From an uncultured Poribacteria bacterium (GTDB taxonomy: Bacteria; Poribacteria; WGA-4E; WGA-3G): a stretch of 64,000 bases of DNA. The position numbers and the translations under genes were made by a program. This document shows, in pieces, positions 20,116 through 26,322 of the stretch. Where the stretch lies: assembly GCA_951812525.1 (NCBI GenBank), contig OX638316.1, positions 372,001-436,000 on the forward strand, given 5' to 3'. Within the stretch, counting starts at the first letter, position 1. Each line of letters begins with the position of its first letter. Under the pieces are notes generated by a model. The model was given only the letters and a program-made list of their open reading frames with translations, had not been told where the DNA came from and searched no databases.

Positions 20116-20150
20116 GAAAATAGAAAATGCGAGGTCCGCGGACCTCGCAT
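20116..20150 (-). terminator. Terminator for the first HMA lipoprotein gene
   Basis: Perfect 24-nt palindrome at 20127-20150 (ATGCGAGGTCCG and complement). On the minus strand it is followed by TTTTCTATTTT. It lies between two convergent genes and may also act on the PhyH transcript. Confidence 0.7.
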
Positions 20151-20214
20151 TGCAATATGAATTCACTTACTCTGATACACAAAGGGCGAGTTAATTTCGT
20201 CTGCCGATTCAGGC

Positions 20215-20574
20215 TTAGTTGGCAACTTCCGCGCTAAATCCGACATCTGTAACAGCCTTCACGAGCGCGTCTTTTTCAACTTTACCCGTCTCAATCTTCA
20301 CGACAGCCTTATTCTCATCCATAGAAACGCTGACAACTTCAGAGACACCGGTAACCTGTGTGAGTGCATCCTGCACCTTACTGGTACACGCGCCTCATGT
20401 CATGCCGGTCACAGTCAGTGTCACTTCCTCAACGCTTGCTTCAGTCGTTTGGCTTGGTGTTTCTGCCGTTTGACTTGGGGTCTCTGCTTGCTTCTTCTGC
20501 GTGTCTGCACACGCTACCACAAACAGAAGTGCCGCAAAGCAGATAAATATTACTCTCGCGTTTAAGTGACGCAT
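20215..20574 (-). CDS. HMA-domain lipoprotein selenoprotein (UGA = Sec60)
   Basis: Reading through one in-frame TGA (20397-20395) gives a 119-aa protein. Residues 1-22 are a lipoprotein signal with lipobox VVAC (C22). A Thr/Gln/Glu-rich linker follows (23-50), then one heavy-metal-associated (HMA) ferredoxin-like domain: VTLTVTGMT-U60-GAC63-TSKVQDALTQVTGV. In normal HMA domains this motif is GMxCxxC, so UGA sits exactly at the first metal-binding Cys. The post-TGA sequence keeps full HMA homology to TDVGFSAEVAN. A hairpin with a GGA loop lies 23 nt after the UGA. AAGAGG precedes the ATG. Probably a surface- or periplasm-anchored metal-binding or redox protein. A paralogue lies at 20691. Confidence 0.88.
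20364..20376 (-). promoter_or_regulatory. Candidate bacterial SECIS hairpin
   Basis: On the minus strand GTGCA-GGA-TGCAC: 5-bp stem, GGA triloop, loop 23 nt after the UGA at 20395-20397. Bacterial SECIS apical loops carry G in the first two positions at about 16-37 nt from the UGA. Confidence 0.7.
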
Positions 20575-20593
20575 GCGTCTATACCTCTTATTT

Positions 20594-20619
20594 GTAGCAA
20601 CGATCTTCGGATCGTCACT
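20594..20619 (+). repeat. GTAG-headed palindrome (REP-like) with UUCG loop
   Basis: TTTGTAG, then stem ACGATC, TTCG tetraloop, GATCGT. It sits in the leader of the first HMA gene, between the two lipoprotein genes. Confidence 0.6.
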
Positions 20620-20650
20620 CCTTATATTATGAATTACAACCTATTGGTAT

Positions 20651-20677
20651 AAAAAGAAAGGGTGGGAAAACCCACCC
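20651..20677 (-). terminator. Intrinsic terminator of the second HMA lipoprotein gene
   Basis: On the minus strand GGGTGGG-TTTT-CCCACCC followed by TTTCTTTTT, 14 nt after the stop at 20691. It indicates that the two HMA genes can be transcribed separately. Confidence 0.8.
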
Positions 20678-20690
20678 CTCTAATCAAGCC

Positions 20691-21083
20691 TTATTGAGCA
20701 GCTTCGGCACTAAAGCCAGCACCTTCAACTGCAGAAGTGAGAGCGTCAGTCGTAACTTTGCCCTTCTCGACCTTCACAGTAGCCGTATTTGTGTCTGAAG
20801 AGACGCTCACCACTTCAGAAACGCCTGTGACCTTGCTAAGTGCATCCTGCACTTTACTGGTACACGCGCCTCATGTCATACCCGTGACATTCAGTGTTAT
20901 CTCTTCAACAGCGGCTCCCTCCATGGATTCTGCCATATCAGCTTTCGATTCGGATTCCATTGTGGCTCCGTCCATGGGAGTCGCGGCAGTTTCGGTCATT
21001 TCAGCTTTCTTTCCGAGCATACCACACCCTACCATGAATACGAATGCGATAAGGCAAATCAGCGATAATCTCGCAATATGCAT
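20691..21083 (-). CDS. HMA-domain lipoprotein selenoprotein (UGA = Sec71)
   Basis: A 130-aa product if TGA (20873-20871) is read as Sec. The lipoprotein signal ends in lipobox MVGC (C20). A Met/Glu/Ala-rich linker (21-60) is rich in Met (MTETAATPMDGATMESES), possibly a metal-binding tether. The HMA domain reads ITLNVTGMT-U71-GAC74-TSKVQDALSKVTGV and continues to VEGAGFSAEAAQ. It is paralogous to the gene at 20215: identical around the UGA, divergent elsewhere, and the wobble pattern keeps protein and hairpin. AAGGAGG lies 7 nt before the ATG. Function inferred: thiol/selenol metal or metalloid capture outside the inner membrane. Confidence 0.9.
20838..20854 (-). promoter_or_regulatory. Candidate bacterial SECIS hairpin
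   Basis: On the minus strand AAGTGCA-GGA-TGCACTT: perfect 7-bp stem with GGA triloop, 23 nt after the UGA at 20871-20873. Same place and same loop as in the paralogue, with a longer stem. Confidence 0.78.
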
Positions 21084-21190
21084 GGGTTAACCTCCTTGAA
21101 TAATATTTGTCTATAGTATTTTAACGGATATGCTTTTTTTAAGCAACATATTTTTTTGCAAACTCTAAATTGCCGCCAAATATACGGAAA

Positions 21191-25678: not shown

Positions 25679-26322
25679 AATCGAAAATAATGAGGAATTA
25701 TCTCATAAATCTAAAACGATACGCGCCGTTCGTGAGCAATGTCAGTTCAGCAGGCTTCTTAGTTCTACTGACGGCAGTCATTACCTTATGCTTCGCTTGC
25801 GAGGGTCCCGAGCGGGCAACACCAGTCATAACTTCACCAGAGGAAGGCGCACAAGAACTGCCTTTGGGTGAAGGATTAGACCGTGGTGCACTGGCTCCCG
25901 ATTTTTCGCTGCCTGATAGCACGGGAAATACCCATAACCTTTCACAGTATCGCGGACAAAATCTCGTCATCGTCTTCTACCGCACTGGCACATGAGGCAA
26001 TTGTCGCGCGCAGCTCGGTGAGTTGCAAGAAGGTTATGAAGACATCCAAGCCGCAGGCGCAGAACTGATCGCTATCAGTGCAGATCCACTGACGCTTGTT
26101 GACTCAACACGAAAGACACTTGAAATCATGTACCCGCTGCTTGTGGATACAAATAAGGCGGCAATCACTGCCTACAATGTCATTGATCCGAGCGATACGG
26201 ATCTTGCGCGTGCAGCGACCTATATTATAAATCAGGAAGGTCGAGTCGCATCGAAATTCCTAGATACGTTTGAAAGTCGCGTCGGTGCTGACCAAATTCT
26301 CGCGGCACTGAAAAATTTATAA
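25675..26322 (+). CDS. Peroxiredoxin/thioredoxin-like selenoprotein (UGA = Sec107)
   Basis: Two open stretches in the same frame are separated only by TGA 25993-25995; together they give 215 aa. Residues 25-45 form a membrane or signal segment ending CFACEG (possible but non-canonical lipobox). The redoxin domain starts LAPDFSLPDSTGNTHNLSQY, then IVFYRTGT-U107-GNC110-RAQLGELQ. Homologues of the AhpC/TSA type read WCPxCRAQLxELQ here, so UGA replaces the first Cys of CxxC. Homology continues to AATYIINQEGRVASKF. A 7-bp hairpin with GGU loop lies 21 nt after the UGA. ATG overlaps the sulfatase stop (ATGA), implying coupling. Likely an extracytoplasmic peroxide or disulfide reductase. Confidence 0.9.
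26010..26026 (+). promoter_or_regulatory. Candidate bacterial SECIS hairpin
   Basis: GCAGCTC-GGT-GAGTTGC: 7-bp stem with one G-U pair, GGU triloop beginning 21 nt after the UGA. Confidence 0.75.

Follow-up and report, generated by a model that had tools for sequence, protein, structure and literature searches.

Tandem HMA-domain lipoprotein genes of Candidatus Poribacteria with UGA at the first metal-site ligand: probable selenoproteins with a likely role in soft-metal capture

Two adjacent genes, here called A and B, lie on the minus strand of the window, that is, the whole stretch of 64,000 nucleotides analyzed in this study. The window belongs to a genome of Candidatus Poribacteria (a single contig of 5,062,467 bases, 5.06 Mb), most members of which are sponge symbionts. 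Each gene carries one in-frame TGA, and the features of the two genes are listed below, with selenocysteine (Sec) as the predicted reading of the UGA.

20691..21083, minus strand: gene A, predicted HMA selenolipoprotein of 130 aa, UGA read as Sec71 (G-M-T-U-G-A-C)
20871..20873, minus strand: in-frame UGA of gene A (Sec71), first ligand of the HMA metal site, aligning to Cys of the Cys homologues
20712..20897, minus strand: HMA domain of gene A (Pfam residues 63-124; AlphaFold model)
21091..21097, minus strand: Shine-Dalgarno sequence of gene A, AAGGAGG (by sequence)
20657..20680, minus strand: intrinsic terminator between genes A and B, 10-pair stem and T run
20215..20574, minus strand: gene B, predicted HMA selenolipoprotein of 119 aa, UGA read as Sec60
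20395..20397, minus strand: in-frame UGA of gene B (Sec60; by sequence)
20236..20421, minus strand: HMA domain of gene B (Pfam residues 52-113)
20584..20589, minus strand: weaker Shine-Dalgarno sequence of gene B, AAGAGG (by sequence)
20126..20151, minus strand: intrinsic terminator 3' of gene B, 11-pair stem and T-rich tail

Both frames agree with an earlier sequence-only reading, which had placed one TGA per gene at the first Cys of the motif GMxCxxC (GMT-U-GAC) and had seen HMA homology resume past the TGA and run to a proper stop. The frame of gene A is open only when the TGA is read through, and orthologues with the same TGA occur across Poribacteria. The Pfam HMA model (PF00403) matched genes A and B with 44.3 and 39.6 bits, respectively, above its gathering cut-off of 24.8. 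The two proteins share one layout, in which a lipoprotein signal is followed by a low-complexity linker and a single HMA domain. Their lipoboxes, judged by eye, are MVGC in gene A and VVAC in gene B, the M at -3 being slightly off consensus, and the lipobox Cys (C20) is invariant among relatives in alignments of 19 and 22; as that reading also held, both are predicted to be exported, lipid-anchored bacterial lipoproteins. Of the Shine-Dalgarno sites that it had called good, that of gene A is excellent and that of gene B moderate. A small correction concerns the arrangement: the genes stand in tandem, yet each is followed by its own terminator, so that they are probably two separate transcription units.

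Matches were found in 57 of 60 relatives and in 77 of the 85 genomes of the phylum, the named relatives being almost all Candidatus Poribacteria. Nearly all of the lipoprotein matches listed contain exactly one TGA. The fetched loci yielded a total of 159 distinct domain matches, among which 133 have UxxC, 2 have UxxxC, 18 have CxxC and 6 are without the motif. TGA thus stands at one and the same codon in 135 HMA domains from many Poribacteria genomes and Cys stands there in 18; no frameshift was seen downstream, and conservation at the protein level continues beyond the TGA to the C-terminus. Tandem pairs were seen throughout the bacterium's own genus and also in a sister genus. Matches outside the Poribacteria (Planctomycetota, Brocadiaceae and Nitrospirae) were Cys forms only, in a scan with a single peptide pattern, and because of that single pattern the limitation of the Sec form to Poribacteria is provisional. 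A viral or plasmid origin was considered and rejected, since a search of IMG/VR returned no relative of genes A and B and plasmids gave weak HMA matches only. Two kinds of related genes were noted in passing. At two loci (L081:107-1573, minus strand, and L087:1898-3427, plus strand) a Sec-HMA lipoprotein continues in frame with about 390 more residues that have no Pfam match. A lipoprotein of 164-167 aa with weak HMA similarity and no CxxC, bearing the motif GMTRFTSTF or GMPRFTSTF, adjoins HMA genes at L059:5756-6250 (minus strand) and at L044, L045, L048 and L049.

The family also includes larger proteins. Five genomes encode secreted arrays that consist of 4-5 HMA domains, 3-4 of them Sec domains and the terminal one or two Cys domains: four Sec and one Cys domain in G021, three Sec and one Cys in each of G006, G032 and G063, and three Sec and two Cys in G064. 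Every UGA of the arrays has its own perfect hairpin. Known prokaryotic selenoprotein families contain one Sec per protein, and a small subset 2-3 (PMC13188914). In the genome that contains the window, near positions 1110709-1110942 of its contig, a long frame encodes a protein of the WD40 propeller type, with a CxxCH-type segment in its N-terminal part and a Sec-HMA domain at the C-terminal end. This TGA-bearing ORF of 560 aa had been considered as a MerA with an N-terminal Sec-HMA domain, an assignment that was rejected in favor of the WD40 beta-propeller. Related long frames in other genomes have either Sec or Cys at the HMA site.

L059:7149-8573, L060:7847-8839, L061:7565-8599, L071:1511-2662, L072:1822-3018: secreted multi-Sec arrays
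L062:6704-8542, minus strand: WD40 protein with N-terminal CxxCH segment and C-terminal Sec-HMA

The hairpin with a GGA loop that had been proposed 23 nt past the UGA is present in both genes of the pair.

20838..20854, minus strand: gene A, candidate bSECIS hairpin AAGTGCA-GGA-TGCACTT, loop beginning 23 nt past the UGA, z -4.68 against shuffles
20362..20378, minus strand: gene B, candidate bSECIS hairpin AGGTGCA-GGA-TGCACTC, outermost A-C open, loop 23 nt past the UGA

By the published rules for the bSECIS, the loop may have 3-9 nt and the stem 4-16 bp, with a G among the first two loop positions and a spacing of 16-37 nt (PMC13188914). The hairpins of genes A and B, with a 3-nt GGA loop, a stem of 6-7 bp and a spacing of 23 nt, lie within all of these bounds. 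The general form across the family is GTGCA-Gnn-TGCAC, with the loop starting 23 nt past the UGA and a stem of 6-7 bp. Of 134 Sec domains, 125 have the hairpin intact, as against none of the 18 Cys domains; the Fisher value for this contrast takes no account of relatedness among the sequences. Among 52 non-redundant sequences, 98.1% of cells were paired, against 6-55% with slid partners, and two stem pairs showed double changes: for instance, a Gln codon turned Arg codon (CAG to CGG), combined with a change in the third position of codon +9, converted A-U to G-C, while GTG to GTA together with GCA to GTA converted G-C to A-U. On a tree of 128 sequences, third positions changed once at Val+7 and never at Gln+8 or Ala+10, whereas in other columns of Val, Gly, Thr and Ala they changed 16-34 times; at codon +9 the third position changed 5 times, against 14 and 19 changes of the first two positions. 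Conservation of the peptide KVQDAL accounts for part of the hairpin conservation, but not for the silent sites. The cleanest control is offered by the five arrays, in which Sec and Cys domains share one protein; four of the five encode SKVQDAL in their Cys domains as well, but with GTT, GTA or GAC codons, which break the stem. In the two genomes with UxxxC, which has a one-codon insertion, the hairpin is intact and moved by 3 nt.

When single sequences were folded by minimum free energy (MFE) and compared with synonymous shuffles, the mean z was -1.7, with 39% at p<=0.05, and in a 55-nt fold of the gene B copy a competing structure was preferred. The MFE signal is only modest because such competing structures exist, and the argument is carried by the comparative tests. 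An Rfam scan of the window gave nothing at gathering scores. Pairing, silent sites and the contrast between Sec and Cys domains together indicate that selection acts on the RNA of this hairpin and that it is a bSECIS element.

The machinery for Sec insertion, which the sequence-only reading had named as a means of checking its claim, is complete in the genome that contains the window. A tRNA-Sec with a UCA anticodon (78.1 bits) directly adjoins selB, and selB, selA and selD scored 336, 594 and 358 bits, all four genes exceeding their curated cut-offs. Across the phylum, selA exceeded its cut-off in 72 of 85 genomes. The selD gene of this genome (L020, contig positions 3914052-3914975) itself has one in-frame TGA, and the same was observed in nine other Poribacteria genomes checked. 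One genome, G030, comes near to a natural control: selA was not found there, the tRNA-Sec lies without its 3' end behind an intact selB (L168, about 2680-2785), and an in-frame deletion of 30 nt takes exactly the Sec site out of gene B (L066:3800-5000). Gene A and selD of this genome have kept their UGA. G030 looks like a lineage that is losing Sec decoding, and an assembly error in this MAG is a possible cause of the losses.

Two other ways of reading the UGA must be weighed against Sec insertion. If it were a true stop, the genes would encode short lipoproteins of about 60-70 residues, with the remainder decayed or produced by an assembly error. Other frames of the window do end normally at TGA, but a TGA shared at one codon by 135 domains, conservation that extends to the C-terminus, a hairpin under RNA selection and a full set of Sec genes make this reading very improbable. 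A reassignment of UGA to another amino acid would agree with the alignment of UGA to the Cys of relatives; it is contradicted by the use of TGA as an ordinary stop, which ends 9 of the 43 open frames of at least 250 codons in the window, together with the presence of tRNA-Sec (UCA anticodon), selA, selB and selD. Recoding is, moreover, tied to a local hairpin, and a change of code is the least credible explanation of all. Given the conserved UGA, the selected hairpin and the four Sec genes, genes A and B are almost certainly selenoprotein genes with Sec at the UGA, in line with what had been proposed from the letters of the locus.

As to function, AlphaFold modeled gene A with a linker of low confidence followed by an HMA domain whose blocks reach a pLDDT of about 95. 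Among solved structures MerP (1osd) matches this fold best, with a TM score of 0.93 by target length and 41% identity, which places the domain with MerP and CopZ. A selenolate/thiolate pair in an HMA loop should favor soft metals such as Hg(II) and Cu(I), and the ligand loop makes metal binding by the HMA domains of genes A and B plausible. The neighbors of the pair are PhyH, UvrC-like, LamG-like and glycosyltransferase genes, and in many relatives similar genes accompany the pair. Metal transporters, regulators and reductases are absent next to the pair and in the one array neighborhood read. A mercury operon was also considered: MerA-like flavoproteins occurred in all 16 genomes searched and every one scored below the curated MerA cut-off, so that no mer system was demonstrated. 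With no metal genes nearby and no MerA above the cut-off in those 16 genomes, capture of metal outside the inner membrane stands as the best guess and a redox role as its main rival. About 5 kb from the pair, an ORF at 25726-26322 on the plus strand encodes an AhpC/TSA-redoxin protein resembling a lipoprotein, with a TGA at 25993-25995 in the context GT-U-GNC (UxxC) and a hairpin downstream; it is probably a selenoprotein of the known Prx-like thiol:disulfide oxidoreductase type.

Under the redox explanation, U-x-x-C on the HMA fold would be a site of selenol/thiol exchange or peroxide reduction on an outer lipoprotein. Sec thiol oxidoreductases usually have the motif U-x-x-C (as tabulated in a review), the Prx-like UxxC selenoprotein is encoded nearby, and no metal genes adjoin the pair. 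On the other hand, the fold and its GMT-x-x-C loop are of the metal-carrier type and not thioredoxin-like, and the neighborhood is not specific to redox functions either; we consider the redox role unlikely, though it deserves to be kept in mind. The arrays, and perhaps the pair, might instead store or carry selenium in the manner of animal selenoprotein P, with metal binding secondary. Secreted chains with 3-4 Sec in five genomes would fit such a store, but Sec occupies the metal-ligand position only, once per HMA domain, the last domain or domains have Cys, the HMA fold would be needless and each lipoprotein of the pair has a single Sec, so that a selenium store appears distinctly improbable. 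Binding of a soft metal outside the inner membrane is favored on the grounds of fold and chemistry, and we regard it as likely.

HMA-type selenoproteins as such are already known, comprising MerP-like proteins, the UxxU family NF041115, P-type ATPases with UxxC and the MerT/CopZ family NF045683; prior art on NF041115 and NF045683 was judged from NCBIfam names and two reviews. The CopZ family metallochaperones (NF047957 and others) gave the best NCBIfam match of both proteins, with 62.2 and 57.6 bits, below the cut-off of 85. CopZ proper is cytoplasmic and has CxxC. NF041115, a UxxU metal-binding (seleno)protein, likewise has Sec within the ligand motif of an HMA-type domain and was aligned to residues 47-118 of gene B and 57-128 of gene A (58.8 and 50.8 bits, below the cut-off of 95), but this family is listed with two Sec and its model has 74 positions, whereas genes A and B encode UxxC lipoproteins. 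Proteins of this type appear in reviews as 'putative mercuric reductase' with UxxU (PMC13188914, PMC9312934). MerP is, like the products of genes A and B, an extracytoplasmic HMA protein, and its Sec form was listed in 2008 from two GOS metagenome sequences (PMC2398784). It is soluble and periplasmic, whereas the tandem genes encode lipid-anchored proteins and lie outside any mer operon, with no mer genes beside them, and the two proteins scored 45.2 and 49.5 bits against the MerP model TIGR02052, below its cut-off of 92.55. NF045683, a MerT/CopZ fusion-like heavy metal transport selenoprotein, shares with the pair a CopZ-like HMA part, which alone was aligned (44.3 and 42.0 bits, cut-off 375); genes A and B are without the MerT part. 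Finally, cation-transporting P-type ATPases with UxxC are on record (PMC2398784, PMC13188914) and have U-x-x-C in a heavy-metal protein, but they are membrane pumps and not lipoproteins.

The papers found to name both Poribacteria and selenocysteine deal with other subjects than this family, to judge by their titles and abstracts. The earlier statement that an HMA selenolipoprotein pair is not a standard family needs narrowing, since HMA-type selenoproteins are known, although neither this lipoprotein pair nor the arrays were found on record. As far as found, the new forms are the tandem lipoprotein pair, the WD40 protein with a C-terminal Sec-HMA domain and the secreted arrays of 4-5 domains with 3-4 Sec.

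Taken as a whole, genes A and B are best read as Sec-HMA selenolipoproteins that capture soft metal outside the inner membrane, with a probability of roughly 0.72. According to this model, SelB with Sec-tRNA-Sec would recognize the hairpin downstream of the UGA and insert Sec, as conservation and the gene set suggest. The product would be exported and anchored to lipid through the lipobox Cys, and the low-complexity linker would present an HMA domain like those of MerP and CopZ, its fold predicted with high confidence and its metal loop being GMT-Sec-x-x-Cys. The selenolate/thiolate pair would most likely bind Cu(I) or Hg(II), as a scavenger or a relay, as judged from fold and chemistry. The pair would form one branch of a wider Poribacteria Sec-HMA set that includes the secreted arrays.

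In selenoproteins of known function, Sec serves mostly for redox catalysis. Automatic annotation that halts at UGA would cut Sec-HMA proteins, and the family is thus probably on record as truncated fragments. Chances are about even that Poribacteria have turned a whole HMA family to selenium, in lipoprotein pairs, in a WD40 Sec-HMA protein and in arrays with 3-4 hairpin-equipped UGAs read per chain. In the arrays, several UGAs are apparently recoded within one bacterial message, and SECIS function can be read from a natural comparison of Sec and Cys domains. If made at full length, the four-Sec array would go beyond the 1-3 Sec of known prokaryotic families (PMC13188914), and it would, if the reading is true, trap soft metals through several selenolates at once. 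A family in which Sec takes the place of a metal-binding residue of the best-studied metal-carrier fold, and in which natural Sec and Cys domains occur together in one protein, would offer a clean test of what metal binding gains from selenium.
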